Below, one piece after another: positions 21,344 to 43,358 of a DNA stretch of 64,000 bases (positions within the stretch are counted from its first letter, which is position 1; the number at the start of each line of letters is the position of its first letter). The notes below the pieces were generated by a model that saw only the letters and a program-made list of their open reading frames with translations, did not search any database and had not been told where the DNA came from. The translations under genes and the position numbers were made by a program. This stretch comes from Lentibacillus sp. Marseille-P4043 (GTDB lineage Bacteria > Bacillota > Bacilli > Bacillales > Amphibacillaceae): NCBI RefSeq assembly GCF_900258515.1, contig NZ_LT984884.1:596935-660934 (forward strand). The letters are read 5' to 3'.

Positions 21344-21537
21344 TTCCCCACCCCATTTACGCATCACCGCATCGTTCTATTTTTACTATTTCGATTATAT
21401 CATCAACTAGAAGGCAATTAAACGTTTTTTTCTGTCGAATTTTAGAGAATGTTAATGGCATGCTTCATAAAAGCCATGATGTTATACTTTTAAAAAGATG
21501 AATCCTTTTTTGATATAAAGAACTTATGGAGGTAGTC

Positions 21538-22536: not shown

Positions 22537-22854
22537 TAAATGACTATTCTCTGTTCTGGGAATAGTCTTAATTTCTTTTTGATACTGAGATCCCATAGTT
22601 CATAACCTATTTTAAACCTACCTAAAGGCTCTATTTTGCAAAGTTTTATTAAGCCAGCACCTAAATGTGTGTTATGTAATTTAAAATTGATTCTAGGGCT
22701 ATTTTAAAGCCCATTTTATGCATATTCGGGACAGGCTTCGTCTTTTGTTAATTCTCTTTCCAAAAATTAAATAAAAAAAGACAAAGCCCTCACAAAAAAG
22801 GCTTTTAATTAAAGTTCTAAAATAGAAGGAAATCTAATTGTGAAATAAAACATT
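22537..22854. other. 318-bp intergenic region
   Basis: No gene seen. It holds ATTCTCTGTTCTGGGAATAG-type short hairpin DNA near 22543 (candidate terminator of the DUF4365 gene) and AAAAAAAGACAAAGCCCTC near 22772. A short block (GATTCTAGGGCTATTTTAAA, 22688-22707) resembles DNA near 28446. Confidence 0.35.
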
Positions 22855-23448: not shown

Positions 23449-23756
23449 TATTCCCCACCCTCACGTACTTACTAAAATCCATACTATCCTGATTAATATT
23501 TCAAATTTTTGTACAATTTTTAGCAGTCAAAATTCTGCATAGACCACTAATGACAAAAGCAATCCAAGTTATAAATATGTGATATTCAAATATAGTTATC
23601 ACTAATCAATGTAAAAAGCATAATAGACATATATTTATACTCGAATTTATTATTCTTTAACTGTACTATATATCCTTTTTAATTATCAATATAATAATGT
23701 CGAATATAGTCGGTGCCTGTTATAATTTTCCTATAAGTCTATTAGGAGGGTTTTAT

Positions 23757-26372: not shown

Positions 26373-26378
26373 TACTAT

Positions 26379-26406
26379 AATCCCTCTAAATCTAATTAGA
26401 GGGATT
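26379..26406. terminator. bidirectional terminator between convergent genes
   Basis: AATCCCTCTAA at 26379 pairs with TTAGAGGGATT ending at 26406, between the TrlF-type gene and the convergent 26406-27383 gene. Confidence 0.7.
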
Positions 26407-27383: not shown

Positions 27384-27475
27384 ATTTTCACTCTTTCTTC
27401 GAATCTTTAATCTGCTTTATACCTTTTCTAGATATGAAAGGTATTGAAATACAGTTTAGTTCTTTACATTAGAGT

Positions 27476-28120
27476 TTAGGTTCCAATTAGTTCAGTAAAC
27501 CAATAGTCACCATATGAATCCCAGTTGAAAAAGTAATCTTTATTAAGGGTAAAATCAATACCATACCCTCCAACAGGCGTTGAAAAGTTGGCACCTGAAT
27601 TTATTCTTGTGCCATCAGATATATCATAAGCCCAACACTTTGCATTCTTATTTAAAGGATAAACTGATGTTCTGTAATTAGACATAACTAAACTTATACC
27701 TATATCAGCAATATTTTGACTGCAATATTGTTCAAGTAAAAATAGATCATAATAAACATCTTTCATAAAAATATCATGTGCTCCTCTTGGTCTTCCTGAA
27801 GAGGCAAATTCTTTGTAGCATTTCAACTCTATTGCAATTGTATACGTTGACAAATCCAAATCAGTACCTTTTATTAATATATCTATTTCTTTTGTTTTAC
27901 CATTAACAAAGCATGTTGACTCCAATTCTATTTCTATTTTCTGTCTTTCATTAAAAATAATTAGCGGTATGAATTGTTGCAGAATATATGCATACTTTAA
28001 TTGCATTGATGCCTCTTTATTAATTTTTATTAACCCACTTCCAACTTTTTGAGAAAATATTTTCCATGAGTAACTAACAATACCCCTTAACCGTTCAAAA
28101 AAGTTCTCGCTTAATACCAT
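27476..28120 (-). CDS. PD-(D/E)xK-like protein, unknown family
   Basis: 214 residues. The region near residues 78-105 reads KEIDILIKGTDLDLSTYTIA followed by IELKCYKEF, the spacing of a nuclease core (D...E-x-K with strands on both sides), followed by GRPRGAHDIFMKDVYYDLFL. This type of core is frequent in small restriction or Mrr-like proteins. The C-terminus is aromatic and unrecognised. Start at 28120, AAAAAAGGTGATTATAAA site. It lies 93 bp upstream of 26406-27383 and is probably transcribed with it. Confidence 0.55.
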   Translation of the reverse strand: MVLSENFFERLRGIVSYSWKIFSQKVGSGLIKINKEASMQLKYAYILQQFIPLIIFNERQKIEIELESTCFVNGKTKEIDILIKGTDLDLSTYTIAIELKCYKEFASSGRPRGAHDIFMKDVYYDLFLLEQYCSQNIADIGISLVMSNYRTSVYPLNKNAKCWAYDISDGTRINSGANFSTPVGGYGIDFTLNKDYFFNWDSYGDYWFTELIGT

Positions 28121-28275
28121 TTTATAATCACCTTTTTTAGTAGGATGTTTCCATAATATAACAGGAAATATTATTAATTTGAAGTATAAACAATAACCTA
28201 ATTAGAAGTCACAACTAAAATTTTACTTTATAATTAAATAAAAATCTTTTTATAACCTCGAAAAGGAGAATTTTT

Positions 28276-28377
28276 ATGACTCAGCGAAGAGACCACATAA
28301 TAAATATTCTGGCAAAAAAATATTATGAATTTCTTTGTTGTCTTAAATATAATGAATCAGTGAATTTTAATTTCTAA
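28276..28377 (+). CDS. possible 33-residue peptide or gene stub
   Basis: Frame MTQRRDHIINILAKKYYEFL... of 33 codons starting 8 bp after a perfect AAAAGGAG site. It is the only plus-strand frame in this gap (28121-28687). The first 20 residues are amphipathic and basic; it could be a real small protein or the 5' stub of a deleted gene. No match recognised. DNA after it (28380-28500) shows nothing else. Confidence 0.35.
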   Translation: MTQRRDHIINILAKKYYEFLCCLKYNESVNFNF

Positions 28378-28506
28378 AGGAAAAAATATCAATCATTTTA
28401 AGCGTTTTATTTAGGAGCAAATATCCATCACTTAATCATGTTCAAAAGTGATTCTAGAGCCATTTAAAAGAATAATTTTTAAAGGATTATATTCCTAATA
28501 TAACGC

Positions 28507-28538
28507 AAAAAAGACAGGTTATTTACCTATCTTTTTTT
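28507..28538. terminator. rho-independent terminator
   Basis: AAAAAAGACAGGT, loop TATTT, ACCTATCTTTTTTT; lies between the 28276 frame and the 28688-29059 gene and can serve both strands. Confidence 0.65.
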
Positions 28539-28687
28539 ACGATAATAGTATTTAGTAATTTGTAGTATAAGGTTGATACCAGAGGAGCGGGATCTTTTAG
28601 TCAACTATGTTTATAGATATTTCTCCCATGAGATCATTCTAATCTGTCTTTAGTTCATCATTTATATCTACAATTTTTGCTATTCAC

Positions 28688-29059
28688 CTAATATTTACTT
28701 AACATTTCTTTTTGGTAATCAATTATGCTGTAGATATAATTAAGTTCCTCTAAATTACAGTAATACTTATGTCCATCTTCAACAGAGATTTGCACAGGAT
28801 AGTGTTCACTTGACTTATCTACTTTTACATCAATAAAACCATAAACTCCTGAATGGACAATGTCACAAATATCCTCAACGTAAAAGTTTCTAAGAACCAT
28901 TATCAAATCCCTCCTGTTAAGAATGAATTCTTCTAAATCACCACCAGTATGAAGTTCTAATAGCACCGTATTGCCTGTTGCATATGTTATAGTTACCCTT
29001 GATGCACTATTATAAAAATCATTAATTTCTACTAATTCTTCTACACTTAATTTAAGCAA
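28688..29059 (-). CDS. hypothetical protein
   Basis: 123 residues if started at TTG 29059 (TTGCTTAAATTAAGTG), seven bases after AAAGGAGGTGG; a GTG at 29068 overlaps that site and is less likely. Beta-rich middle (RVTITYATGNTVLLELHTGG) and an acidic end with ISVEDGHKYYCNLEELNYIY. No family recognised. It is the last gene before the second paralogue flanking the defence island. Confidence 0.5.
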   Translation of the reverse strand: MLKLSVEELVEINDFYNSASRVTITYATGNTVLLELHTGGDLEEFILNRRDLIMVLRNFYVEDICDIVHSGVYGFIDVKVDKSSEHYPVQISVEDGHKYYCNLEELNYIYSIIDYQKEMLSKY

Positions 29060-29156
29060 TATTACCACCTCCTTTACCCTTTACTTCAAGATTAAGTCGA
29101 TTATTACTGCATTTTTAGAACAAGAATTTTATCAACACATTCGGGAATTTAATCAA

Positions 29157-29189
29157 TTAAAAAGACAAGGATTTCACTCCTCGTCTTCT
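29157..29189 (-). terminator. terminator related to that at 15679-15706
   Basis: Minus strand AGACGAGGAGTGAAATCCTTG then TCTTTTT, overlapping the end of the 29174-29539 gene. Confidence 0.55.
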
Positions 29190-29539
29190 TTCAAATAAAT
29201 AGGATTCAATTTTTCAGCCAGTTTTAGACACTCGAAAATCGCATCATCAACTAGAATGTACTCGCTCAAAATGGCATCTATATTTTGCTTAAGACCTTCA
29301 AAGGTTGCAAAAACATTGTCTCTAATCTCTGTATTGAAAACTTCGGTTAAAGAATTCTCTTTATTAACCTTTGCTAGCCTTTTGTCGAACACAAATAAAA
29401 AGTACTGATATTGAGCGAACCCCTTGTACTGCTTCCAGTTGATTTTTTTAAAGCGTGTAATAATAAATTGATAATCTTCGTGATGGAATTCAACAATTTC
29501 ATTTTCCATTGGTTTTCTTGAGTGATTTGTTTGCTGCAA
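29174..29539 (-). CDS. hypothetical protein, paralogue of 15709-16068
   Basis: 121 residues from a TTG at 29539 (MQQTNHSRKPMENEIV). This start is chosen because AATGGAGGAGATACAC matches the AATGGAGGAGATTACTC before the paralogue; longer in-frame starts exist. Shared blocks with 15709-16068 include EIVEFHHEDYQFIITRFKKI, the FLFVFDKRL strand and the QNIDAILSEYILVDDAIFEC helix. Together the two genes bracket the 16.1-29.1 kb defence island. Function unknown. Confidence 0.55.
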   Translation of the reverse strand: MQQTNHSRKPMENEIVEFHHEDYQFIITRFKKINWKQYKGFAQYQYFLFVFDKRLAKVNKENSLTEVFNTEIRDNVFATFEGLKQNIDAILSEYILVDDAIFECLKLAEKLNPIYLKEDEE

Positions 29540-29781
29540 GTGTATCTCCTCCATTATCTTATGAAAATTTATACATGACGACTCTTCCAGATAATGAAGG
29601 AAAAACCTTGATTTTTGAAATGAATTTACAAATTGCTTAAAATTGATTTTCCAGCAATATTTCAACCCTTTAAGACCTTTATGCCGGGTTTATTTTTTAG
29701 TTATTTCTAGCAGAAAAGAAATAGGTATTTATACCTATCCATCGTTCTAAACCATTTTTACTTTCTAGTATTCTTAGCAAA

Positions 29782-30297
29782 TTAAATAACGAGCATGAAA
29801 TTATCAATTTTATCTTCAATATCATATTTATCATTTAGGTCTGTATAGTTTTTTAATAGTTTCTGGATTTCTTCTTTACTCAAAGCATCTAATAAAACAT
29901 CTTTGAAATCCTGATATTCTTCCTCATCATCTTCCTCAATGTATGTATATTCATCTACATAATCAACTAAATCCCATTTTATATACTTTAAAAGTTCCTC
30001 TTCGTTATCAAATAAATCCCTGAATCCTACTTTTTCTGCTTGAATTAAAATGTCACCCTCGTTTTCATCAAAAATAGTTATGGAAAAACCATTATCTTCA
30101 AGGTGTTTATATAGTTGGAACGGGGACAGTTCATTGAATTGATTTAATGGGAAATCATATTCATCTACTCCTGAAACAGTATTCAAACCTACCCGATAGC
30201 ATCTTCCCTCCTCAGTAATTACAATTTTTTGTCCATGGACTCCATGAATGTATTCTAAAATGAAATCTTTACTATCCTTTATTTTAATTTCTTTCAT
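29782..30297 (-). CDS. hypothetical acidic protein
   Basis: 171 residues, strongly acidic (a run with EEDDEEEYQDFKD near residue 120). The start at 30297 has an AAAAGGAGGATGATATATT site and overlaps the stop of a coding-like 34-codon frame (30294-30398) by the ATGA arrangement. A beta-rich N-terminal third (KIVITEEGRCYRVGLNTVSG) is followed by helices. No family recognised. Confidence 0.5.
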   Translation of the reverse strand: MKEIKIKDSKDFILEYIHGVHGQKIVITEEGRCYRVGLNTVSGVDEYDFPLNQFNELSPFQLYKHLEDNGFSITIFDENEGDILIQAEKVGFRDLFDNEEELLKYIKWDLVDYVDEYTYIEEDDEEEYQDFKDVLLDALSKEEIQKLLKNYTDLNDKYDIEDKIDNFMLVI

Positions 30298-30398
30298 AAT
30301 ATATCATCCTCCTTTTCTGGCCGTTTACACGGGTGTTCACCTTCCCATCGTGTAACTGTACGTTCGTTCCCGTATTCCCCTAATGTACAATTAAACGT
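30294..30398 (-). CDS. possible small upstream frame without clear start
   Basis: A 34-codon frame with very protein-like content (CTLGEYGNERTVTRWEGE, HPCKRPEKEDDIL) ends in TGA overlapping the ATG of the next gene. It lies behind AAAGGAGGTGGAGG but no ATG, GTG or TTG in this frame is found after the site, so it may use a rare start or be a remnant. In another frame the same site leads a 17-codon TTG frame. Confidence 0.35.
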   Translation of the reverse strand, partial: TFNCTLGEYGNERTVTRWEGEHPCKRPEKEDDIL

Positions 30399-30910
30399 CC
30401 TCCACCTCCTTTTTTTAATGTGGAAAATAACTCCGTATTAGGAACGGAACTGGTTACTTTTTTTATCAATTTGTTCACTAAGTTAGTTGTATCATAAATT
30501 CCAAAAGACAATATCGATATAAATAGAAATTCTTGATGGGATATTTTCATTTGGCTATTATATTAAATCGTGAAAATAGTGAAATTAAATATCTTATTAT
30601 CAATATCTATTTTTATCAGGAAACGCCATTTAAAAGGGGGTTATTTTTAATCCTATACAATCATATAAGGAAACCCTTAACTAAAATTATAGAGCCAATT
30701 CCCCCTACATTTTTCAGTGATTTAATACTAAATAGACTATTGCAATAAGATATTTAGAATTACTATATATCAGAACGGATGAAGTAATTTTTGATTAACT
30801 AATAATAAAAAAGAGCAAGATAGAAAATTACTTCCTAGTCTTACTCTTCTTTCTTACTGTTATAAAATTTACTAACCTAACCATGAAAAATTAAAGCGAT
30901 ATATACCTAT
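30399..30910. other. intergenic region between cargo and tns operon
   Basis: 512 bp with no convincing gene. The 71-codon plus-strand frame at 30533-30748 has no ribosome binding site. A hairpin at 30807-30855 (see terminator entry) marks the end of the tns operon. Confidence 0.4.
30807..30855. terminator. terminator downstream of the tns operon
   Basis: AAAAAAGAGCAAGATAG pairs with CTAGTCTTACTCTTCTTTCTT; imperfect but long, 55 bp after the tniQ stop. Confidence 0.5.
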
Positions 30911-32818
30911 TTAACGAACCCATAGGCACAAGTTATTCTTCTCAATAATTAATTTTATTGCTTCTTCCTGAAGGTCTTTCTGGAAGTTTTCCCTAATCCC
31001 CGCCTTTCGATATATTCTCCATAAAGATAAATCCTGACCGTCTTTCTCTAACTCTTGTACTGCCCATTGTAACCTTCTAATTTGAAAATCCTTAATACTC
31101 TCAGTTTTGTCATTCAAATACGCTTTTGTCATTGGTAGTTTATCAAGGTGTTTTTCCAATAATGGTCTAATTCCAATTCTACTACCTACTGAACTTATCG
31201 TAATACGTACGGGCTTCCCGACAGTCAACATATCATTGACTGCAATTCTTACATTTTCGTAAATTTCCTCGTCCCGTTGCTCCCAGTCAACCCTATGATT
31301 ATCGTTGACTGTTGATTTTATTTTAGGGGAGTTTCGATTCAACCAGTTCCTATCATTTCGGTACAGCCATGTAAACACTCTATTGTTAAGTTGGCGTAAT
31401 TCTGTTTTACTGCTGTGCGGATACTGTTTTATTAAATTCAGCCATTCTCTTCTGAAACTTTCTTTCTTCTCAACAGAAGAATCTTCCTCATTGATATTTA
31501 CAATTTTTTGATCTTCCCCACCTCTTTTTAACCAGTATGTTTTCAAATCTAATTTCTTCGCATATTTTTTGACTGTGGCTGGGTCTACAGCCAATTGCCT
31601 TGCCGTTTCCCTTAAACTTAGTCTTTGATTAGTAAGTTTCTTTAATTTGTTTTCCCATACAGAGCCAAAATGCTTAATCTTTGTTATTTTATATCTGTCT
31701 TTTTCTTCACGATCAGGGCCCGTTCTGAGGTAAACAAAGCCGCAATCACATATAAAAACACCAATAGGACTTTTACTATCTGCACCATACTTTAATTCCA
31801 TATCGTTAATCACAGGTTTTAAATAATGGCTAGCAGCAGAATTCAAACATGGCCATGGTCTCTCTCCAAAGGGCTTGTACTCAATTTTTTTATTAAAAAT
31901 ATGTGAAGGAGAAATCCCCAAAAAATGTGTAAATAAAAGATGTCTGATAGGATGGCTTGATTTATTGTTTCTCCGAATCATTTCATATAGCCAATTACTA
32001 TTACTATTGAAATCAATGTCGGATTGAACCATTTTTAAAAATCTATGACCATAGAAATTCACGAATGATTCTAACAACTCCTTTTGTTTTATCCTACCGT
32101 TTATATTTGCAATCCCAAGTTCTTTTAGCCTATTGATATACTGTCCTTTAAACCACTTTAATGATTTATTTTCCATTTTGTTATTTAACAGATAATCAAT
32201 ATCCTGTGCAATATTGATTGCCTTATCCATGATATTGTCAGGGTAATTTAACTTAGGGTAATTTATTTTGCAAGTTTCTGGAGTGGCTAATCTATAATCA
32301 TGTTTGTTATAACCCCTAACAGGGACTTGGCTATCATAAAGCGGGGTGTTATGCTCTGGACAAACAAGAACTCCCGGTATTTGATGAATTCTATGCCAAT
32401 ACATTTCTCCAAGATTATACATCTCCTCATCGGCACATTTGGGGCAAAATTTAAAGTACTGATTAAACTTAACTGAACTTGCCATCAAACCAATTCTATT
32501 GTAAATACTGCCCCCCTTGTCCCCAATCATAGATTCCTTAACTTTAGCAGCATGTTCAGAAGACAGGAAAGCAGCGTAGAATGGATACAGTGTATGATTT
32601 GCAATTAAGTATTCTGGCGTATAATGATGGCCAACAGGAAGGTTTTCCATAATACGATAGATATGAGAAGGCAAGTCCATTATTGCTGTAATACTGTCCG
32701 TACCGTATATATCCTTTTGTGTGGCTTTAATACTGACGTTTCCACTACGAACGTGGTATCTCGCCAAAACGCTATATAAAAGTTCATCTTTATACGGTAC
32801 TGGAAAGAAGGTCATCAT
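30911..32818 (-). CDS. tniQ: TniQ/TnsD family target-selection protein
   Basis: 635 residues. The N-terminal TniQ part starts MMTFFPVPYKDELLYSVLAR and has the zinc-binding FCPKCADEEM (~124) and VCPEHNTPLYDSQV (~152) motifs, matching TnsD. TnsD-type proteins bind the 3' end of glmS and guide insertion just downstream; the element's position beside glmS agrees with that. The C-terminal half contains a helix-turn-helix-like LSLRETARQLAVDPATVKKY near 405. Gap of 6 bp after tnsC. No TnsE gene is seen. A 66-bp fragment of a related tniQ lies at 41111-41176. Confidence 0.92.
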   Translation of the reverse strand: MMTFFPVPYKDELLYSVLARYHVRSGNVSIKATQKDIYGTDSITAIMDLPSHIYRIMENLPVGHHYTPEYLIANHTLYPFYAAFLSSEHAAKVKESMIGDKGGSIYNRIGLMASSVKFNQYFKFCPKCADEEMYNLGEMYWHRIHQIPGVLVCPEHNTPLYDSQVPVRGYNKHDYRLATPETCKINYPKLNYPDNIMDKAINIAQDIDYLLNNKMENKSLKWFKGQYINRLKELGIANINGRIKQKELLESFVNFYGHRFLKMVQSDIDFNSNSNWLYEMIRRNNKSSHPIRHLLFTHFLGISPSHIFNKKIEYKPFGERPWPCLNSAASHYLKPVINDMELKYGADSKSPIGVFICDCGFVYLRTGPDREEKDRYKITKIKHFGSVWENKLKKLTNQRLSLRETARQLAVDPATVKKYAKKLDLKTYWLKRGGEDQKIVNINEEDSSVEKKESFRREWLNLIKQYPHSSKTELRQLNNRVFTWLYRNDRNWLNRNSPKIKSTVNDNHRVDWEQRDEEIYENVRIAVNDMLTVGKPVRITISSVGSRIGIRPLLEKHLDKLPMTKAYLNDKTESIKDFQIRRLQWAVQELEKDGQDLSLWRIYRKAGIRENFQKDLQEEAIKLIIEKNNLCLWVR

Positions 32819-32824
32819 TTCACA

Positions 32825-34477
32825 TCACCCTGTCTGACCGAAATCGTATTCATAACTCTTGATAAAACCCCCATTACCAAGACCTTCATAGGCTGTTTTG
32901 TTTTCCTTACGACATTCAACAACTAAGGTCCTTATATCATTCTCTACAGAAGATTCTTCTTTCTTTCGTTTTTTATTTCGTTTAGTTGAAGCGGATATAC
33001 CCTGTATGGTCTTAACAACCAGTTCGTTGATATCCAAATTCGCCTCTTTTTCAGTAATTTCTTCTACAACCTTTTGAACCTCGGTAGGTTCAAAATCCAA
33101 TTCTATAAGTTTCAAAATTGCCTTTTCTTTTATTGAAATACTCATTTCTTGTTCTTTTTTCTTTTGTGTTCTTTTTATTGCCTCCATCTTCATTTGCAAA
33201 TCAACAGAAGCCCTTTCTTTTTCCATAAATCCTAAAAAATCTACGTCCACTGTACTGATATCTTCAAACTTTGCAATCTTACTAATGTTGCCCGACTTCA
33301 AAGCCTGAATCATTGGCCTAACAAGTTGCAAATGCTTACTAGCCACCTGACTAATTGTTTCTGGCATTATTTCTTCTCTTTCCATCATAATGGCCTCAAT
33401 TTGAGCCATGGCATAAAGTTTTACAGCGATATCAATAATACCTTGGCTTTCCTCATACAGGATATTTTTAAAATCATCCGTTAAAGGAATCTGTTTTCTT
33501 GTCCATTGATAGCCCCAAAGAGCATTAATCAATAAATCCCAGTTTTGGTCGTTTTTCAACCTATCCCAAATCATATCCCCTTGACCACTTCCCCGTCTTG
33601 CCTGTCTAAATTCGCTTTGCAAAATAGACAATCCAGCGGGTGTTCCTACTAAAATAACTGGAACTCCAATTGTATTAACTAGTGTTACAAAAAAGTTCAG
33701 CATCTTCTGATCCCCACCACTTTTGGCTTTACTTAAATGCTGAATCTCGTCTATAACTAAAACGCCCAGCCCTGTGTTTCTCGCTATTTGAGACATAATC
33801 ACCAACATATCATTTATAGTTTTTCTACCTAGGCCAAATTTTTTATGATACTCTGTTCCTAATAAATCGTCTACCTTACGGAAAAATTCCAAGGCTAGTC
33901 CTCTCAAGGAAGAATCAAATGGGCAATCAAGTTTAAGCCATACAAGTTGATACATACTGAAATTTACTCCATTATAGTCTTTATGAACAATGACTTGAGG
34001 GTATAAAGATAAAATCCTATTTAAAGCCGTTGTTTTTCCCATGCCACTTACACCGATTATCGTAAATCCTGCTGCTGTTGTTCTAAAAACACTATTATTG
34101 CTTAATTCACTTTGCAATCCGTTGATATTTCGATGCCCTTCCTGCAAGCCCTGTGCATATCCGGTTCGAAAAGGATTTCTTGCCAAATATCCCTGCCGAA
34201 TAACTCTGGAAATTCTACTTTCCAAATCCAAGTGTATCCATAACGGCTGAAAACATTGGAATAATCTTTGTACCAAATGAATGCGATAATGTTTATCTAG
34301 CATTCTTGCTTTTGAATTGTATTCGGCATATATAGCCATTTTTTCAATGGCTTCCTCTGTAGAAAGGATAGAGGGAAGTGCTTCAATGAAGGGATTCCCT
34401 CTATATTCCTCAATAACCTGTTCCCCGTATTCAGCGACAACAGCATCACAACCATTTGGAATGATGACTCTATTCAT
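32825..34477 (-). CDS. tnsC: TnsC transposition AAA+ ATPase
   Basis: 550 residues. Walker A IIGVSGMGKTTALNRIL (~138) and Walker B GVLVIDEIQHLSK (~236) are intact; VPVILVGTPAG follows as sensor 1. TnsC assembles on target DNA, links the target selector to the TnsAB transposase and gives target immunity. The start at 34477 overlaps the end of tnsB by 8 bp. The C-terminal 150 residues are charged and helical (KRTQKKKEQEMSISIKEK), the region where Tn7 TnsC contacts TnsA/TnsB. Confidence 0.93.
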   Translation of the reverse strand: MNRVIIPNGCDAVVAEYGEQVIEEYRGNPFIEALPSILSTEEAIEKMAIYAEYNSKARMLDKHYRIHLVQRLFQCFQPLWIHLDLESRISRVIRQGYLARNPFRTGYAQGLQEGHRNINGLQSELSNNSVFRTTAAGFTIIGVSGMGKTTALNRILSLYPQVIVHKDYNGVNFSMYQLVWLKLDCPFDSSLRGLALEFFRKVDDLLGTEYHKKFGLGRKTINDMLVIMSQIARNTGLGVLVIDEIQHLSKAKSGGDQKMLNFFVTLVNTIGVPVILVGTPAGLSILQSEFRQARRGSGQGDMIWDRLKNDQNWDLLINALWGYQWTRKQIPLTDDFKNILYEESQGIIDIAVKLYAMAQIEAIMMEREEIMPETISQVASKHLQLVRPMIQALKSGNISKIAKFEDISTVDVDFLGFMEKERASVDLQMKMEAIKRTQKKKEQEMSISIKEKAILKLIELDFEPTEVQKVVEEITEKEANLDINELVVKTIQGISASTKRNKKRKKEESSVENDIRTLVVECRKENKTAYEGLGNGGFIKSYEYDFGQTG

Positions 34478-36620
34478 CTTTTTTATTTAAAGCCTCCTTC
34501 TGCTTTCTCAACAACAAATCATACCCTGTATCCCTCATACTTTCAGATTGATTAAAAGGAACAACCTCTGAGTTTTCTATATTACTTTTATTTAATTCAA
34601 AGGCCTCTTCTTCACGTTGAATCATTTTTTCAACAGTACGGTTTTCTCGTATGCTTCCAATCTTGCTTCTATTACTGGTTTGATTCGTTTGATTTTGAGA
34701 TGTTTTCTGTTTAGCCTGATTTACAATTTCCTCGATTTCAGTATTTAAATCAACTTTTGACTGTATTGTCTTCTCCTTGTGTTGCCTTTCTTTCAGTTTC
34801 TCGTATTCTAGCAAATAATCGACTTCTTCAACTACCTTGCCCTTATAACGTTGTTGATGTTCCAATAAAAAACATTTATCAAAACTCAAACCATCTTCAG
34901 CCCGTAAATATATATAATCCATATTTCTTGGATCATAACTTATTTCAATTTTCCAAGTCCCCCGATTCCGTGCTTTTTCAAACCACCTTTCCTTTAAGGA
35001 CTGTTTTGAACCATATAGTAACCCTTTATACGCAATCCCTTTTGCAGTTACAGTAGCCTTGCCCGTTGGCATGAGATTAAGTTTTACAATATCTTCTGAA
35101 GCATGACGTAACTTTCCAGATTTGTTGTTTATCCCCCATTCCCAAAGTTGTATTGGAATAGACTCTATGCCGTCCTCCACCATCATTTCTTCACGCTGAT
35201 AGTTTGTAAGATAATGTTGATTATTATGATATAAAACACATTTAATAATCACTTGAGTAAACTGGTAAATATCCAATTGTGCTTCCAAACGGTAATCACG
35301 ATCCCCACGTTCTTTAACAGGCTTTACTGAACCCGGCAGAAAAGCCTTCGTTCTTGTATTGGTCACTCGGAAATGCTGTTCAATTATTCCCTTTAAATCA
35401 GCCCTGTAAGAGGGTGTATTTAGAATTTTTATTCCGAAGTTATTAATTAGGGGCTCAACTTTACTTCCCTCTAATTCTCCTCGGTCAGCCAAAATAGATT
35501 CTGGAAGATGTGCTGCAGGCCACTCATGTTTTTCAATCTCAATTCCGAAGTCCCGACAAAAACTAACTTTATCAGAGGCAGCATTAGCCAAAGCCATCAT
35601 TGCACCAGCCCAAGATGGACCTTCCAATCCAATATATAGACCTACGATCATTCTGCTATAAACATCCATTACAGAATAAATTACAGGTCGTCCAATTATC
35701 CAATCACGATTAAATCTTGATAACAGGTACAAGTCGCCTACCGTTGCATCAATCTGATAAACTGCACCGGGACCTAATGCTTCGGTTGTAGACTCCCCAA
35801 TAATTGCTCTATGATTTTGGTCATAGTTTTTTCGACCTTTTCTTTGGCTGATTTCCTTTTTTATGTCTCTTTCCTTTTCAAACCAATATCTAAATTGATT
35901 TAGTGAAGGTAACTCTCCATAGGATTTTATTACGGGTATTTCTACTTTTCCTTTCACTTTACTGTCCATGCTAAAATAATCTTTTAACATTAATTCGTAG
36001 GTAAGAGTTAGTGATTTTTCAGCAGAGGAGTAATAATGCTTGTTTATAGCAGACCTAAATATTTTTTTAATATTTTCATCAATATTTATTCCTTCTCCTG
36101 TAACCTGTCCATGCTTTCTAGGCCTTCCTCTTTTTATTTCACTTGCCCTCTTTTCCTTACCCTTACCCCCACAGAGATAATAATCAGGTAAAAGGGCATT
36201 TTTGGTTTTACCGCGTTGCCAATACTTCTTTAAGTAGCGAATAACTGTACTTTCATGAACATTGTGGACTTCACATATTTTTAGAATTAATTTTCTCCTT
36301 TCTGCTGAGTGGTAAACAAATGGTTCTAACTTCACGATATCCTTTATGATCTCCCAAGCATTGTCACGTAAGGACAGATGCTTTTCAGGAATATCATTTT
36401 CATTTATCAACCGTCTGAAAGGGTCTTTTTCAACAATAACCATGCTACCCTTGTTAAGTCCGTCTTCTACTTCTGAAATATTCATTTCATAGGGCAGAGA
36501 GATGGAATGAATATTAAAAAAGTACCCATAATCATGTGCTTTATTAAGCCATAATACCCTTTCAACTACTTTCTCGTTTTCTGACGTAGTAAAGGAAATA
36601 AGATTATTCACTACAAGCAT
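34470..36620 (-). CDS. tnsB: TnsB DDE transposase
   Basis: 716 residues of the Mu/TnsB integrase-fold group. The catalytic triad looks intact: YQIDATVGDLYL (~D289), ESILADRGELEG (~D376) and GIIEQHF (~E413), about 36 residues between the last two. N-terminal HTH-type domains bind the ends (HESTVIRYLKKYWQRG, ~118). TnsB cuts and joins the 3' ends. It overlaps tnsA by 10 bp and tnsC by 8 bp, so the operon is tightly coupled. A C-terminal Lys/Asn-rich tail contacts TnsC in Tn7; a similar tail is seen here. Confidence 0.93.
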   Translation of the reverse strand: MLVVNNLISFTTSENEKVVERVLWLNKAHDYGYFFNIHSISLPYEMNISEVEDGLNKGSMVIVEKDPFRRLINENDIPEKHLSLRDNAWEIIKDIVKLEPFVYHSAERRKLILKICEVHNVHESTVIRYLKKYWQRGKTKNALLPDYYLCGGKGKEKRASEIKRGRPRKHGQVTGEGINIDENIKKIFRSAINKHYYSSAEKSLTLTYELMLKDYFSMDSKVKGKVEIPVIKSYGELPSLNQFRYWFEKERDIKKEISQRKGRKNYDQNHRAIIGESTTEALGPGAVYQIDATVGDLYLLSRFNRDWIIGRPVIYSVMDVYSRMIVGLYIGLEGPSWAGAMMALANAASDKVSFCRDFGIEIEKHEWPAAHLPESILADRGELEGSKVEPLINNFGIKILNTPSYRADLKGIIEQHFRVTNTRTKAFLPGSVKPVKERGDRDYRLEAQLDIYQFTQVIIKCVLYHNNQHYLTNYQREEMMVEDGIESIPIQLWEWGINNKSGKLRHASEDIVKLNLMPTGKATVTAKGIAYKGLLYGSKQSLKERWFEKARNRGTWKIEISYDPRNMDYIYLRAEDGLSFDKCFLLEHQQRYKGKVVEEVDYLLEYEKLKERQHKEKTIQSKVDLNTEIEEIVNQAKQKTSQNQTNQTSNRSKIGSIRENRTVEKMIQREEEAFELNKSNIENSEVVPFNQSESMRDTGYDLLLRKQKEALNKKDE

Positions 36621-37462
36621 TTTCTTTTTGCCTCCTCATGCGTAATTCGTGGCTTTACTTCAATTATTGGGTTGGATAGATTTACATTAATTTGATTAGT
36701 CATATCTATTCCAATCTGTTTTGAAGCAATTAAGAACTTGAACACAAATAACCCTGTACCCGAATCGTTATTAAACTCCTTGTCAAAATCAGCAGTTATC
36801 TTTCTAACTGAATGCTTGGCATCTATTAATCTTTCTATTAAAGCGTTACCTAAATAAATCAGTTCATCCTGTGTAAAGCCTCTTTCAGCATATGAAAATA
36901 AGGAAGAATGCACCCATTCAATATTTTTTGCAACCACATTAGAAATTTCTTTTTGCGTAACAACTCCCCAGTCTATTCCTTTTTCCGTCCAATATCGGCG
37001 TTCAATTTCTAATCTTTCTAATGTCATTTTCTTCTCAAGTTCCGAAGCCATTTTTATGCTTCTTGCTAAATACAAATTAACTCCATCGGCTCTATTTATT
37101 GTTATTAAGAAATTAGTACTTAGTGTATATGGGTATCCACTTTCCTTATCTGTAAAAAGTTTAAAATTCAAATCTGATTTCTGTTGTATAGTATCTTCAA
37201 GATCCAATAGGGGAAAATGTTCTCGTATGTCCACAACTGCATCTTCCCACTCCAACATATAAAAGTATCGAGCCTGCAAATCCGAAAATAAATGATGTAC
37301 CCTACCACTCTTCCACCCAAGTATTCTTGATACCCGCCCCATAGAAGGAAAATCCTGAATAGTCAACCACGGTTTATATTCCTTACCTGCTCCTTGTCCT
37401 CGTCCTTCTTTAACAAACCGATTATATTTATTCTCATTCCAAGATTGATTACGTTTTGTCAT
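36611..37462 (-). CDS. tnsA: TnsA endonuclease-like subunit with altered active site
   Basis: 283 residues, clearly TnsA: GRGQGAGKEYKPWLTIQDFP (21-40), SGRVHHLFSDL (52-62), EWEDAVVDIREHFPL (71-85), LERLEIERRYW and the C-terminal domain. In Tn7 TnsA the nuclease residues are E63, D114 and K132. Here residue 63 is Gln (codon CAG) and the Asp of STDFL is Asn (STNFL, residue 117, codon AAT); the Lys (137) remains. Loss of both acids would abolish 5'-strand cutting and favour replicative transposition. The gene heads the operon; the 180 bp upstream has no recognisable TnsB sites. Confidence 0.92.
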   Translation of the reverse strand: MTKRNQSWNENKYNRFVKEGRGQGAGKEYKPWLTIQDFPSMGRVSRILGWKSGRVHHLFSDLQARYFYMLEWEDAVVDIREHFPLLDLEDTIQQKSDLNFKLFTDKESGYPYTLSTNFLITINRADGVNLYLARSIKMASELEKKMTLERLEIERRYWTEKGIDWGVVTQKEISNVVAKNIEWVHSSLFSYAERGFTQDELIYLGNALIERLIDAKHSVRKITADFDKEFNNDSGTGLFVFKFLIASKQIGIDMTNQINVNLSNPIIEVKPRITHEEAKRKCL

Positions 37463-37630
37463 ACTCCACTTCCTCTACTGCATTATGTATCTAGTACTCT
37501 AGTGAATTTTTAGTAACTCGATTCTAACGGGCCGGTTAGACACATTCAATATCCCCCAGCAATCTTTTTTATGATTTTAAGAGAACATTATTATCATTCT
37601 TCTAACACCTAAGATATTTACTGCAAATAA

Positions 37631-37643
37631 GTTTTTGTAACTA
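37631..37643 (-). repeat. 13-bp inverted repeat, right copy
   Basis: Minus strand TAGTTACAAAAAC, pairing with 129-141. It abuts the left end at 37644. The next bases inward (CTTATTTGCAG) loosely resemble a TnsB site. Confidence 0.6.
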
Positions 37644-37819
37644 TGTTAAATTAGAATAAAGTTTGCAGAAACGAGTAAATACGTCCATCCCTTGCCATAT
37701 ATAGCCTCAAAGGCATTACCCAACTTATTTCATGAGAATAAAGTTTGCACAAAGATTTGCTCGTTTTAAGTCAGAAATGAAATCAATAAATAATAAAGAT
37801 AAGAATAAAGTTTGCTTAA
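37644..37819 (+). repeat. Tn7-type left end with three spaced TnsB-like sites
   Basis: Begins TGTTAAATTAG. Three copies of AATAAAGTTTGC start at 37655, 37737 and 37804, 82 and 67 bp apart, as in the Tn7 left end. The interior is to the right, so it pairs by orientation with the right end at 41520, not with the tns operon to its left. Confidence 0.8.
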
Positions 37820-37999
37820 ACATAGAGGAGAGATCACCAAACAAAGAGAGTAACCTAAACCTCATGAAGGCACCTTACGGTGACACCTGAACCAAAACCG
37901 ATTCTTGACTTCTGATTGTTATAGGGTAATGCAGTTCTTTACTACCCTTGGAATACGGTATAATTGCCATGTTAATTAGTTATCAAGGGTGGGCATTAA

Positions 38000-38326
38000 A
38001 TGATTTACACAATTGTATTGTTTATATTTGCTGGATTTGCAGAGATTGGTGGAGGTTATCTTATCTGGCTATGGTTAAGAGAAGGTAAGCCATTTTATTG
38101 GGGTGCTTTCGGAGGACTAGCCTTAGCGTTATATGGTATTATTGCCACATTTCAAACATTCCCATCATTCGGCAGAGTATATGCTGCCTATGGAGGAGTA
38201 TTTATTGTTCTTTCTGTATTGTGGGGATGGGGGATTGATAAAAGAACACCTGATTTATACGATTGGATAGGTGCTGGTATATGTTTAGTGGGTGTTTCAG
38301 TAATGTTATTTGCACCTCGCCAATAA
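38000..38326 (+). CDS. YnfA-family (UPF0060) membrane protein
   Basis: 108 residues with four membrane helices, the size of small multidrug resistance relatives. Diagnostic strings: [20 protein letters not shown] (10-29, with the buried Glu), [15 protein letters not shown] (39-53), [24 protein letters not shown] (57-80) and [20 protein letters not shown] at the end. YnfA/UPF0060 proteins are SMR-like and some export cationic drugs. Ribosome binding site AAGGGTGGGCATTAA. It is cargo of the 37644-41520 element, with an IS inserted right behind its stop. Confidence 0.88.
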
Positions 38327-38385
38327 ATGTATTTCGCAAGTGAAAATTGAGCCACATCGCAATTTAATTTTGAGCCACTTACTTT

Positions 38386-39132
38386 TTAGTTATTTTTAAT
38401 CCAATCTTCTGTTTCTCTCATTCGATAAGAAGTACCATTCATATTTAAAACGTGTGACTTATGAGTTAAACGATCCGTTAATGCTGCTGTTAATACGGCA
38501 TCGTGGAAGATCTCTTGCCACTTTAAAAATGACAAATTACTGGTGATGATCGTTGACTTTCGATCTGCCCTTAAGGATAGATGGGAAAACAGTAATTCAG
38601 CTCCTTCTTTATCAAATGAGATATATCCTAATTCATCCAATATTACGAGATCATACTTTTCAAATTTTAATTCAAATGATCGTAATGTGCGTTCCGAGCG
38701 ATGTTCCTTCAATTGATTAATAAAAGAAGGCACTGTCGCAAAGAAAACACGATATCCGGCTAAACATGCTTCCATTCCTAACCCAATAGCTAGATGCGTT
38801 TTACCGGTTCCAGGAGGGCCTGTCAAAATGACATTCCGGCCCTCTTTAATAAAGTATAGGGTTTTTAGGTCTGGTAGTTTTTGTTGCGCTGGCTTTGGTA
38901 ATGCTTCTTCTACTAATTCATCTAACAATTTCTTTTGTGGAAAATTCGCAGCCCTAATTCGGTTTTGCTTTGCGCGAATTAATCGATCTGCTTTTTCCTG
39001 TGTTAATACTTGAAGTAATACATCATATGCCCGTTCTGGATGTTTAAAATTGCTAGAATCCTGAACCATTTTTCGAATGCTTGGTAGTCTTAAATCCTTA
39101 CATAACTCAATTAGCTTTGTTTGTTGTTCCAT
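38386..39132 (-). CDS. istB: IstB transposition helper ATPase (IS21)
   Basis: 248 residues, AAA+ ATPase of the IstB/DnaC group: Walker A ILTGPPGTGKTHLAIGLGME (~101), Walker B YDLVILDELGYIS (~158), then STIITSNLSFLKW (sensor) and DRLTHKSHVLNMNG at the end. It remodels target DNA and activates the IstA transposase. Directly behind istA (1 bp), same strand. Appears full-length. Confidence 0.95.
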   Translation of the reverse strand: MEQQTKLIELCKDLRLPSIRKMVQDSSNFKHPERAYDVLLQVLTQEKADRLIRAKQNRIRAANFPQKKLLDELVEEALPKPAQQKLPDLKTLYFIKEGRNVILTGPPGTGKTHLAIGLGMEACLAGYRVFFATVPSFINQLKEHRSERTLRSFELKFEKYDLVILDELGYISFDKEGAELLFSHLSLRADRKSTIITSNLSFLKWQEIFHDAVLTAALTDRLTHKSHVLNMNGTSYRMRETEDWIKNN

Positions 39133-39133
39133 T

Positions 39134-40672
39134 TCACACTACTCCTTCTGTTGTATAAAAAAGATCCTGATAAGCTCGTAGATTCGATTCAGCTTGTTTT
39201 GCTATATCATCATTTTCTTCGATCATTGGAGATCCGTCTGATTGCTCACATATAAACTGAATTCGCTCTGTTGAAATATAATCGAATCGGACTTGTTTCA
39301 ATTGCTCAATGGCCTTTAATACTTCCTCAAGATTATCTTTTTCCTTTATAAAATGGAGTAGCTCTAGAAAATCTTTCTCTTTTCCGATATAATACTGTTG
39401 ATAGATATTTTTAATATGGGTTGGTGCCTGCTTCATACATTGACTTTGATTCAGGGCACCTTTTTTCTTTTCAAATGTTTTCAAATAGTGATAGATATCC
39501 ATTTCCCACTGATGAATCCCCCAATTTCGAGGATGGGCCGCCACAAATTCACCATCAATAAATATTCGAATATGCTCTGCCCCTACCTTGGCACGGATAT
39601 ATTTCCCCACATGTCCCTCAGGGACAGAATAGTGATTTTGTTTAATCACAATGGTACTGTATTTATCTACTCGGCATTCAACCAATTCTGCTGCGTCAAA
39701 TGGGTGAATTGTATTCTTTTTCACTGTCTTTTTCTCTTTTTTCAACAGGTCGATATGCTTTTCCTTATATTCATGATGCAGTCGCTGGTTCAATGTTTGT
39801 AATACAGTAATTAAATGTTGATTAGCTTCTGTTATGTTTTCGAACTTGTATATGGATGAAAATGCCTTCCGCCGTATAAACTCGACACTTCGTTCTACAT
39901 GCCCTTTTTCATTTCCTTTTCTCGCTTCACATAATCGGATACGAAATTGATAATAGTTCGAGATCTGGATCATTGGGTCCGTGATCGTTTTTGCGTTACC
40001 AATAAATGATTTCACCACTGTTCGCATGTTGTCGTAAGTAAAGACTGCTGGTATAAAATCCAAGTGTTCGATCAGTTTCGCATGTACGTCCAATACACAT
40101 ATTTGAGTTTCCGATTCATATAATCTCGCAAACCGATAATTACTATATGGCAACGTAAAAACAGCTAGCGAATAACTTCCTATCTTTCCATCTATCTCTA
40201 ATTTCACTTCTCCCCAATCAAATTCAACCTCTGCACCTGGTTCACAATACTTGCGAATAAACACTTCTCTCTTCTTCTCCGTTTCTTCATTCACATAATT
40301 TCTAACCGTTGTATAGCCGATGTTATACCCTTCGTCTCGTAATGCTTCATACATATCAATCATTTTCATTTGTTGTTTAGCCATGTAATGTTGTTTTTTC
40401 CATTCATTTTCAGCAATGAATTGTTGTAACTTCGCTTGTATTTCCTCTGTAAGGACGCGTTTTTTACTGATTCTTGGTTTATACGTTGGTGCGCTCATAA
40501 TGTCTTCAGGAATCGGCAACTGTCGAATATCCTGCTGTTTGCTTTCTTCAAACTTCGCAATGTATTTCTTTATCGTATTCCTTGCGACTTTAGTTGCTTT
40601 TGAAATGCTTCTTTGGCTCTCTCCATTTAGATATCTTTTAATAATTTCTTGTTTCATGTTCAATGTCACCAC
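39134..40672 (-). CDS. istA: IstA transposase (IS21)
   Basis: 512 residues. N-terminal HTH (RSISKATKVARNTIKKYIAK, ~18), an rve-type DDE core with EVEFDWGEVKL (~151, Asp), FTYDNMRTVV (~210, Asp) and KGHVERSVEF (~260, Glu), and a C-terminal domain with YSVPEGHVGKYIRAKVGAEH. It performs cut-and-join of IS21 ends together with IstB. Complete frame with start ATG at 40672, so the IS may still be active. Confidence 0.95.
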   Translation of the reverse strand: MVTLNMKQEIIKRYLNGESQRSISKATKVARNTIKKYIAKFEESKQQDIRQLPIPEDIMSAPTYKPRISKKRVLTEEIQAKLQQFIAENEWKKQHYMAKQQMKMIDMYEALRDEGYNIGYTTVRNYVNEETEKKREVFIRKYCEPGAEVEFDWGEVKLEIDGKIGSYSLAVFTLPYSNYRFARLYESETQICVLDVHAKLIEHLDFIPAVFTYDNMRTVVKSFIGNAKTITDPMIQISNYYQFRIRLCEARKGNEKGHVERSVEFIRRKAFSSIYKFENITEANQHLITVLQTLNQRLHHEYKEKHIDLLKKEKKTVKKNTIHPFDAAELVECRVDKYSTIVIKQNHYSVPEGHVGKYIRAKVGAEHIRIFIDGEFVAAHPRNWGIHQWEMDIYHYLKTFEKKKGALNQSQCMKQAPTHIKNIYQQYYIGKEKDFLELLHFIKEKDNLEEVLKAIEQLKQVRFDYISTERIQFICEQSDGSPMIEENDDIAKQAESNLRAYQDLFYTTEGVV

Positions 40673-40776
40673 TCCCGAAACTCCCCCAATATTAAATTGT
40701 AATACTAGGGTATTTTCTAATAAGGTGGCTCAATTTTCAATTGTCATTGTGGTTCAATTTTAAGTTACCATATACA

Positions 40777-41392
40777 ACACCCACATATAATGAACACATT
40801 TTAAAAGCAATACCACAATCAACATGCATCCTTATCCATTATTTTCACCTTTGGCTGTGAAAGTAATTCTAAAACCTTCTCCAAATAAAAAAACCGAGAA
40901 AAGATATCCTAGATACGTTCCCGATTCGATAGTCTATATATCAGACTCATACATAGACTGGCTCCCACTTCCCTTTTTTGAAAAATCATTTTCAGATTGT
41001 AAGTGGGGGATAAGTGAGACTGACACTTTATTAACAGAAGTTACATAGGAGACAATAAGAAACCTTACGGTTCACCAATACCACCCAGTTCCCTTGTGAT
41101 ATCCCCGTATAGACTTGGCTGTCATACAGTGGTATCCCATGCTCTGGACAAACAAGAACCCCCGATACCTGATGACTCCTCTTACATGACCAATCCCTTA
41201 TTATTTATATATATTTATTTCATAGGAGAAACCACTTGAAGCATTTTACACGTTACAGGGTGTGGGCATTCGTTCATTGAATTAGTTTCGGGTCTGTATA
41301 CCTTTAGAGAGACATAGGGACATTCCTTTCACCCTACTTACTCAAGGGTTACTCTTCCCGTAAGGGAATTCCCTACAGATACCTCATTATGG
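40777..41392. other. remnant DNA between IS21 and the right end
   Basis: Holds a 66-bp tniQ remnant (41111-41176) and otherwise no intact gene. A 74-codon frame (40824-41048) has no ribosome binding site. The likely origin is the interior of a decayed Tn7-like element. Confidence 0.5.
41111..41176 (-). pseudogene. tniQ/tnsD fragment
   Basis: About 66 bp align with 32324-32386 inside the intact tniQ: GACTTGGCTGTCATACAGTG and CATGCTCTGGACAAACAAGA against GACTTGGCTATCATAAAGCG and TATGCTCTGGACAAACAAGA. It encodes the zinc-ligand region SGVLVCPEHGIPLYDSQV. Same strand as the intact gene. Remains of a second tns operon. Confidence 0.75.
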
Positions 41393-41520
41393 CCATAAAT
41401 CCACATAAAAAACCCCGTTTATACATCCATATACTGGATACACTCACGGGGCTTTATGCAAACTTTATTCTTCTTATGCAGACTTTTTTCTTATTCTGCA
41501 AACTTTATTTTGTTTTAACA
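41393..41520 (-). repeat. Tn7-type right end next to glmS
   Basis: Perfect copy of 1-128. Minus strand begins TGTTAAAACAAAATAAAG at 41520, 35 bp beyond the glmS stop, where Tn7-like elements insert. The 5 bp outside (CAAAG on plus) do not match those outside the left end at 37644 (AACTA), so no target duplication links these two ends. Confidence 0.85.
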
Positions 41521-41555
41521 CAAAGCCACAAAAATCTAACTAACTAAAATAATCC

Positions 41556-43358
41556 CTATTCCACCGTCACACTCTTCGCTAAATTCCGTGGCTTATCGAC
41601 ATCGCAGTCACGATGTAGCGCCGCATAATATGCCAATAACTGTAACGGAACAACCGTAATAAGTGGTGTTAATAGTTCATGCACATGCGGTAAAACAAAT
41701 GCATCACTATCTTGTTCCAAACCTTTCATACTAACAACCATCGCATTTGCACCGCGAGCGACTACTTCTTGCACATTGCTGCGAACTGCATAGTTGACAT
41801 CTTCCTGTGTTGCTAGTGCAATAACTGGAGTTCCTTCTTCAATTAACGCAATGGTTCCATGTTTCAATTCCCCACCAGCAAATCCTTCTGCCTGTATATA
41901 GGAGATTTCTTTAAGTTTTAGTGCACCCTCCAGACAAACAAAGTAATCACTGCTACGTCCGATAAAGAAGGCGTTACGTGTTGTTTCTAAATAATTTTTA
42001 ACAAGATCTTCAATTGCTTCCTTCTGATCCGTTAAAACTTCCATTGCATTTGCCGCAATCGCTAACTCCTGCATTGGATCAAAATCTAACTCAAGACCTT
42101 TTGCCTGGGCTGTATCAACTGCTAAAATTGCTAATACGGCAATTTGTGCAGTATATGCCTTTGTTGATGCTACGGCAATTTCTGGCCCTGCATAAAGGTT
42201 TAACGTATAATCTGCTTCACGAGAAAGGGTGGATCCTGGCACATTTGTAATCGTTAGTGCTGGATGTCCCATTTCTTTAATTTTTACTAATACTGCACGG
42301 CTATCGGCTGTTTCCCCACTTTGTGAAATAAACACAAACAATGGTTTTTCCGATAGAAGTGGCATATTATATGAAAATTCACTTGCTACATGGACTTCAA
42401 CTGGAATATTTGCTAATTTCTCAATGAACTGTTTTCCAACTAATCCCGCGTGGTAACTTGTGCCACAAGCAATAATATAAACACGATCACATGCCTTCAT
42501 TGCCCCGCGTACATCAGCATCAAGCTTCAATTCATTGGTTTCATTTTGGTATTCATTGATAATTTTTCGCATTACAAATGGCTGTTCATCGATTTCCTTC
42601 AGCATAAAGTGCGGGTATGTTCCTTTTTCAATATCACTCGCATCAATTTGTGCTGTGTATGGCTTACGATCAACGACAGTGCCATTTAGTTTTTGAACCT
42701 CAACAAAGCTGCGATTCACCAATACAATTTCCTGGTCAAAAATCTCCAAGTATTGATCAGTTACGCTTAATGTTGCCATTGCATCACTTGCCACAACATT
42801 GAACCCTTCGCCTAAACCTACTAATAATGGGCTTTTGTTTTTTGCAACATATAGCGTATCCTGATCCTCTTTATCAATCATGCCAATTGCGTAAGAACCT
42901 TTTAACAGACCCATTGTTTGGCGAAATGCTTCAGCAGTATCTTGATATTTTTCAAAAAGTTTTTCAATTAGTTGAACAACTACTTCTGTATCTGTTTCAC
43001 TAATGAAGCTGACATCGCTAAGATATTCCTTTTTTAAGTCTTGGTAGTTTTCAATAACCCCATTATGAACGAGTGTGAATCTGCCAGACTTGCTTTGATG
43101 CGGATGTGCATTCTCTTCACTCGGTACACCATGTGTCGCCCAGCGCGTATGGCCGATTCCCATTGTTGCATGAACGGAGCTATCTACGCGATCTCTTAGT
43201 GTTGCAATACGGCCTTTTACTTTAAAAAGATTCATCCCATTATCATTTAACATCGCAATTCCGGCTGAATCATAGCCGCGGTATTCTAATTTTTCCAGTC
43301 CATTTAATAAAATTTCCTTTGTATCATTTTGTCCGATATATCCTACAATTCCACACAT
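41556..43358 (-). CDS. glmS: glucosamine-6-phosphate synthase (isomerising glutamine transaminase)
   Basis: 600 residues. Makes glucosamine-6-phosphate from fructose-6-phosphate and glutamine, the first step to UDP-GlcNAc and the cell wall. N-terminal glutaminase with catalytic Cys1 of [18 protein letters not shown] near 72; two SIS isomerase domains with [10 protein letters not shown] (~296), SQSGETADS (~344) and the C-terminal [14 protein letters not shown] glmS ribozyme and GAGGAGGAAACAACGAT precede it. Its 3' end is the recognition site of TnsD-type proteins and the Tn7-like island lies right after it. Confidence 0.98.

Follow-up and report, generated by a model that had tools for sequence, protein, structure and literature searches.

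How does a Tn7-like element move, and carry its own genes along, when its TnsA has lost both acids of its nuclease site? The question is raised by a stretch of 64,000 nucleotides from Lentibacillus sp. Marseille-P4043 (contig NZ_LT984884.1, positions 596,935 to 660,934; hereafter the window), where a tnsABC-tniQ operon lies near glmS. A sequence-only reading had proposed that the two acids are changed to amides and that the element would transpose through replicative cointegrates, or else that its TnsA is dead in a decaying island. We found that the operon sits on a backbone, B, between two direct copies of a small segment, 'a', each bounded by a left-type (L) and a right-type (R) transposon end. 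Very probably, this element belongs to a natural clade with a nuclease-dead TnsA, whose circles have been inserted by cointegrate formation, mostly at attTn7, the attachment site downstream of glmS.

The TnsA active site and its conservation

Aligned with Tn7 TnsA, the window protein has Gln63 (codon 37274-37276) where Tn7 has E63 and Asn117 (codon 37112-37114) where Tn7 has D114, while Lys137 (codon 37052-37054) and the PD-(D/E)xK fold are kept. Both the catalytic Glu and the catalytic Asp of this nuclease site are missing, as had been claimed from the sequence, and the accompanying claim that TnsB retains its DDE triad was confirmed by alignment to Tn7 TnsB (7PIK). A TnsC ATPase and a TniQ/TnsD protein, both recognised by Pfam, share the same operon.

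We compared the window TnsA with the best 120 of 664 homologues. In these 121 rows Asp at column 117 is absent (0/121) and Asn occupies it in 33, column 63 holds Gln in 73 and Glu in 48, and Lys at column 137 is invariant. Q63, N117 and K137 occur together, as read from DNA, in 13/13 close elements (the window's own included; 70-100% TnsA identity), so that the Q/N pair is indeed shared by a group of related elements. A wider set of 171 rows, with Bacilli and Clostridia loci added (only matches with fetched loci, those of Bacilli longer than 230 aa), splits cleanly into E63/D117 (21 rows), E63/S or T (62), Q63/T or S (51) and Q63/N117 (37), the Lys being kept in 98-100% of each group.

A quick tree, computed without the trait columns, separates the E/D rows from the others by one branch (SH-aLRT 99) and puts the window TnsA inside a 39-row clade (SH-aLRT 96), the inner forks being poorly supported. 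All 39 clade rows carry Q63, with N at position 117 in 32 and T or S in seven, whereas the 54 rows next to the clade are mixed at column 63 (42 E63, 12 Q63). If the root is placed with the E/D rows, Asp would have been lost first in a large group, and Glu later and more than once. As a trait of the clade, the loss of the acids holds for Q63 throughout, but the loss of Asp is far wider than the clade. Replacement of the catalytic Asp by S, T or N was observed in 150/171 rows (e.g. L046-L059, L154-L161), and Asp-less Tn7-like TnsA form a very large group in Firmicutes, many members of which keep Glu63 and lack the two-copy plan described below. Two homologues, P0030 and P0033, have Asp or Glu at column 135 (Tn7 Q130, two residues before the Lys), the other two acids being missing.

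The ratio of nonsynonymous to synonymous substitution rates (dN/dS, by NG86 among five elements, 10 pairs per gene) is 0.065-0.134 for tnsA in all 10 pairs, 0.093-0.184 for tnsB and 0.070-0.192 for tnsC. The tnsA gene is under purifying selection and is as well maintained as tnsB and tnsC. Judged by its residues, TnsA would have lost its catalysis yet be retained by selection as a partner of TnsB and TnsC. In Tn7, TnsA activates TnsB and contacts TnsC, and by analogy with these roles its retention suggests that activation of TnsB or binding of TnsC probably still depends on it.

Two direct copies of 'a' around the tns backbone

The unit has the order [L-a-R]-B-[L-a-R] (Table 1). Its end arrays are built of sites resembling GCAAACTTTATTCT. 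The right-hand L-type array (37653-37815) belongs to an L end that sits 181 bp upstream of the tnsA start, which places the tns genes outside the right-hand L-R pair; they come to lie between mobile ends only if the outermost ends are taken. The R-type array (three sites, 20-bp period) spans 41458-41520, with 35 bp between it and the end of glmS. The left 'a' lies to the left of the window, at C1:594728-596924, its L end starting at the first and its R end finishing at the last of these positions, and is immediately preceded by the partner of the outer duplication (CAAAG, C1:594723-594727). B begins with TAGTTACAAAAAC and ends with GTTTTTGTAACTA, and the inner flanks, AACTA before L and TAGTT after R, form no direct duplication. 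Repeated ends and replicative cointegrates, as the sequence-only reading had anticipated, are thus matched by two direct L-to-R copies with a duplication only outside. The right copy has an IS21-type insertion where the left one keeps about 0.77 kb of other DNA, while the arms common to both (688 and 744 bp) show 99.86% identity; since the two copies can be told apart, a truly integrated unit is favoured.

Table 1. Positions, strands and bases of assignment of features in the window.
Feature	Position	Strand	Basis
R-type end of left 'a'	1..128	+	100% identical to 41393-41520
Backbone B, flanked by the two 'a' copies; tns operon and cargo	129..37643		
Xer-like tyrosine recombinase, possible resolvase	11524..12420	-	Pfam/NCBIfam
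484-aa protein resembling plasmid replication initiators	13273..14727	+	tblastn against PLSDB
tniQ/tnsD, target selector	30911..32818	-	Pfam TnsD (427 bits) and TniQ
tnsC, AAA ATPase, TniB family	32825..34477	-	Pfam
tnsB, DDE transposase	34470..36620	-	Aligned to Tn7 TnsB 7PIK
tnsA, 283 aa, PD-(D/E)xK fold with acids replaced	36611..37462	-	
Right copy of 'a' (L end, ynfA, IS21 insertion, R end), between tnsA and glmS	37644..41520		
L-type end, terminus TGTTAAAT, three spaced TnsB-like sites	37644..37815	+	
ynfA (UPF0060), cargo of 'a'	38000..38326	+	Pfam
IstB/IstA-like pair, IS21-type insertion, right 'a' only	38386..40672	-	IstB named by eye
R-type end, three packed TnsB-like sites, 20-bp period, terminus TTTTAACA	41393..41520	+	
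Outer 5-bp target duplication CAAAG	41521..41525		
glmS, attachment-site gene	41556..43358	-	Named by eye from sequence

For eight of the 13 close elements, sequence on both sides was available for reading or searching: the window's own (genome G000) and those of Evansella halocellulosilytica (G065), Cytobacillus massiliigabonensis (G066), Bacillus sp. B1-b2 (G064), Filobacillus milosensis (G067), G853, G905 and G1008, with G853 and G905 read as pieces around the ends and the left side of G1008 searched only. Two direct copies of 'a' flank the tns genes in seven of the eight, G1008 being the exception. Perfect outer 5-bp duplications are present in six of these seven (CAAAG in G000 and G853, ATTTT in G066, CTATT in G064, ATTAT in G067, ACCAG in G905); they occur at the outer ends only, the inner junctions having no direct duplication. 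Six of the seven two-copy elements have their R end 24-81 bp from glmS, and insertion downstream of this gene, end arrays of repeated sites and 5-bp duplications are all features of Tn7-like transposition. An L-type end directly upstream of tnsA was found in all 14 clade contexts, i.e. the 13 close elements and the Clostridia element G734b, although the L008 contig ends within it. The plan recurs in G734b, a marginal member of the clade, with diverged copies (86.9% over 449 bp) and an outer duplication that is not clear; the 2-kb bracketing repeat of this element is, by eye, a transposase-like gene and not 'a'.

Within a genome the copies of 'a' are nearly or fully identical (G853 2197/2197 bp, G905 1334/1334, G064 3181/3181, G067 2805/2805, G065 2206/2209, and 1021 and 1027 readable bp at 100% in G066), whereas between five genomes the parts of 'a' that align share 79-90% identity. 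In G062 the copies (1229/1229) are on two contigs, one running into a B-like flank and the other into glmS. The TnsA of G853 is 100% identical to that of the window, beside a glmS that is just 73% identical. The left copies of G000 and G853 differ at 4/2197 bp. At both sites that can be read in all four copies, the base is shared within a genome and not within a side, which indicates that the copies arose, or became alike, after the two lineages had separated; of the remaining two differences, one falls in the block replaced by IS21 and one is private to a single copy.

We also found solo copies of 'a' with their own duplication in three genomes. In G905 a further 'a', the third, lies outside the unit, with identity over 1334 bp and TGAAT on either side; G911 has one of about 1.2 kb with TATAC; and G981 has one of about 1.0 kb with TTTAA, 40 bp from glmS, its R terminus being set by eye. 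Overall, the R end is present in 12/193 genomes of one family, four of the 12, namely G911, G981, G929 and G963, being without a TnsA match at E<=1e-90. In G929, G963 and G1008 an R end lies at glmS with no L end in the 1.5 kb read. G963 (L239, L252), where no close TnsA match was found, contains two R ends separated by about 7.5 kb. One is at glmS; the other is followed by TAGTA, like the inner junctions of the clade. The single 'a' of G1008 (L229, L230) is not beside glmS, a different R end being at glmS some 57 kb away.

The two-copy form is absent from the ten control elements with E/D TnsA. With direct repeats of at least 80 bp and at least 90% identity as criterion, bracketing repeats were found in 0/10 E/D TnsA elements read over 80 kb; seven of these ten are at a glmS homologue, and in six of the seven the tnsA match lies 166-175 bp from glmS, leaving no room for 'a'. 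Bracketing repeats are likewise absent from 15 out-of-clade non-D Bacilli elements (0/15; 11 of them read over 26-60 kb only) and from nine of 11 Clostridia elements (one E/D, ten non-D), two of which, G510 and G538, are readable over less than 0.3 kb and about 3 kb upstream of tnsA; the Clostridia element G734a has a 434-bp repeat at 93%. An inverted-repeat search upstream of tnsA yielded little for most controls. In G804 (L184-L187), three further, inverted copies of a short stretch preceding tnsA lie 8-14 kb downstream, among local direct repeats. The idea that the cointegrate form is general to all non-D TnsA elements is unsupported, with 0/15 in Bacilli and 1/10 in non-D Clostridia (G734b).

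Concerning the origin of 'a', a 64-bp stretch in it (41112-41175) matches tniQ codons (32324-32387) at 81%, and a similar match is present in G853 and partly in G065; 'a' may have descended from a deleted full element. Degenerate R-like ends in B (4424-4539), in 'a' (around 40777) and upstream of tnsA (37540-37640) are suggestive of layered older insertions. The 'a' of G905 (L227, L228) contains, by eye, a degraded ynfA and repeats about 165 bp apart.

Proposed routes into and out of the chromosome

We propose that the transposon proper would be the small 'a', bounded by L and R, with tnsABC-tniQ outside it on B, and that B and one 'a' would together make up the mobile form, a circle that in some cases would carry a replication gene of plasmid type. 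TniQ and TnsC would pick the target, mostly just downstream of glmS, and TnsB would nick the 3' ends of 'a' and join them to it. Without the 5' cut by TnsA, replication through 'a' would yield [L-a-R]-B-[L-a-R] with the 5-bp duplication outside only, and recombination between the two copies would later free B with one 'a', leaving a solo 'a'. As the tns genes lie outside the L-R pair, cut-and-paste would move 'a' without its transposase and only a cointegrate would carry tns along; the nuclease may have been lost for this reason.

Measured in five elements, the backbone has a length of 30-62 kb. The 484-aa protein of the window has relatives (tblastn) in 29 PLSDB plasmid records from Staphylococcus, Mammaliicoccus and Macrococcoides, one of them of 6.45 kb with seven genes, as well as weak matches to PHROG replication-initiator profiles, and no match in the phage collection. 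A plasmid-type initiator is present in three of the five backbones (the window, G067 with a relative at 92%, G064 at 43%) and was not seen in G065 and G066, so that B need not be a replicon. An Xer-like recombinase is encoded in four of the five (the window, G067 at 57%, G064 at 46%, G066 at 29%) and none was seen in G065. As to the earlier proposal that such an element would need a resolvase, these recombinases are possible candidates for a dedicated one, but homologous recombination could be sufficient.

Several observations weigh against insertion of circles by cointegrate formation. Five of the 13 close elements are not readable on both sides, among them L013, whose tnsA is broken; G1008 (TnsA 87% identity, on a 5.23-Mb contig) has a single 'a'; the outer duplications of G065 do not match; and both G066 copies contain runs of N. 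The G905 unit is 762 bp from glmS, i.e. not adjacent to it, and no glmS lies within 1.5 kb of the solo 'a' of G911. G000 and G853 have similar left flanks, apparently because each borders the terminus of an older element. In the window's genome the R end of the left copy is repeated at window positions 1-128 across one undetermined base and a 137-bp repeat. Concerning the free circle, PLSDB yielded no close TnsA, the best among the matches listed reaching 42.5% and all 505 records being below 60%. Asp, and even both acids, have been lost more widely than the two-copy architecture, out-of-clade relatives having no such duplicates. Finally, several assemblies are fragmented or scaffolded and alone cannot separate an integrated cointegrate from a B + 'a' plasmid with a chromosomal solo 'a'; this doubt is best answered by G905 and G853, whose contigs measure 4.47 and 4.37 Mb, and by the distinguishable window copies. 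We have eased our confidence slightly, both in cointegrate entry and in the lifestyle considered below, on account of the G905 unit lying off glmS, the similar flanks of G000 and G853, and the mixed residues at column 63 next to the clade.

An unlikely alternative is that B + 'a' circles enter by homologous (Campbell-type) recombination into a resident solo 'a', the duplications stemming from the earlier solo insertion. This would give the same topology, and solo 'a' with duplications of their own do exist. However, G905 had a solo 'a' at TGAAT, yet its neighbouring B-bearing unit has its own duplication, ACCAG. Moreover, fully identical copies would require a resident of exactly the same sequence, and the solo copies would themselves need a source, which with a dead TnsA would again be a cointegrate.

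We regard as quite improbable the possibility that the whole unit moves from outer L to outer R as a composite transposon whose terminal copies are homogenised by gene conversion. The outer duplications would fit such a unit, and two direct copies can recombine, but near-perfect homogenisation would be needed in each lineage, though the copies differ by 10-21% between most lineages, and the IS21 insertion in one window copy has not been homogenised.

Very improbable, too, is a TnsA that remains an active nuclease with an altered metal site, the two-copy products arising by cut-and-paste from dimeric circles. Such a site might be sought in the invariant K137, in E141, which is Glu in 78-100% of the rows of the three non-D groups vs 28% of D rows, or in the acid at column 135 of P0030 and P0033 (2/121 rows), and dimeric donors are named as a possible source of rare cointegrates in the accessible part of one study (PMC8188705). 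That same part reports that a single D90A change in Tn6677 TnsA suffices for >95% of informative reads to represent the cointegrate, the donor backbone between two transposon copies (PMC8188705). Products of dimers would be expected to be rare, not to make up 7/8, and no acid has been regained at columns 63 or 117 within the clade.

That TnsA is simply dead in a decaying island, with repeats from unrelated insertions, is hardly tenable: a broken second tnsA and a tnsE-like gene do lie just left of the unit, and L013 has a broken tnsA, but the former belongs to an E/D-type remnant and not to the window element, the operon is open, and the decay once proposed is contradicted by Q63 in 39/39 clade rows, Q63/N117 in all close elements, a tnsA dN/dS near 0.1 and an identical TnsA in another genome beside a diverged glmS.

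This older remnant, to the left of the unit (L004 15173-17671), comprises a TnsE-like gene and a tnsA that a stop interrupts, and was apparently pushed outward from glmS by a later insertion. A second, active TnsA supplying the missing cut was considered and rejected, as the genome of the window has a single further match (C1:593821-594585), which is broken by a stop and comes from the remnant. The backbone also encodes a nicking or restriction endonuclease of the AlwI family with two D12 methyltransferases (16204-21367; full-length match to a PADLOC nicking-endonuclease model) and a TrlF/Ppl-like AAA ATPase (23697-26372), which is probable anti-phage cargo. Towards its left end (215-3825) are genes of the glyoxalase-like, DUF4440, GrpB, NUDIX, nucleotidyltransferase and dihydrofolate reductase families.

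Relation to other Tn7-like elements

The window element shares with Tn7 of E. coli the tnsABC-tniQ/tnsD genes, the DDE triad of TnsB, the end-site arrays, the 5-bp duplication and the insertion beside glmS. It differs in having amides at the positions of E63 and D114. The tns genes of Tn7 lie between its ends, whereas those of the window lie on the backbone, outside the nearest L-R pair. May and Craig are said to have obtained, in 1996, the same backbone-between-two-copies product with active-site mutants of Tn7 TnsA.

The unit is also like the product of the Tn6677 TnsA-D90A mutant, a donor backbone flanked by two transposon copies in the accessible part of that work (PMC8188705); there the mutant was engineered, whereas here the clade is natural and conserved. 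According to the available portion of a review, elements without TnsA cutting pass through cointegrates that are resolved by a site-specific recombinase or by host recombination (PMC11406308). Like the Tn5053 type, the window element would take the cointegrate route for want of TnsA cutting. However, Tn5053 lacks tnsA and has a site-specific recombinase, whereas here tnsA is kept and under selection. In Tn6022, 39.1% of insertions were cointegrates, going by the portion available of the report (PMC10293859); these are a minority product of an assay, whereas here the cointegrate would be the standing genomic form. Finally, some Tn7-like groups are predicted, in the accessible text of a further study, to be replicative because tnsA was lost and a resolvase gained (PMC8649781). 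A replicative pathway is likewise suggested here by the loss of TnsA function, but this loss would have come about by active-site substitution, and genomic products are seen. Our literature search, whose coverage left most subscription papers outside, recognised no report of a natural clade with dead TnsA.

These elements probably represent a distinct lifestyle within the Tn7 superfamily, in which circles would use Tn7-type targeting and a nuclease-dead TnsA as an integrase. The segment 'a' would be both the transposon copied at entry and the homology used for exit, each integration being a site-specific cointegrate and each loss leaving a solo 'a', like the solo long terminal repeats of retrotransposons. 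The tns genes would travel outside the transposon, and their spread would depend entirely on the inability of TnsA to cut.

More generally, simple insertions cannot be assumed wherever a TnsA is annotated, and taking the nearest end as the limit of an element can mislead. A natural clade shows the mutant-like state of TnsA, and its genomes hold the predicted cointegrate product. This makes it testable why a dead TnsA is kept, for example as an activator of TnsB or for its contact with TnsC, how cointegrates resolve without an obvious dedicated resolvase, and how a site-specific transposon could serve as the integrase of circles with such large backbones.

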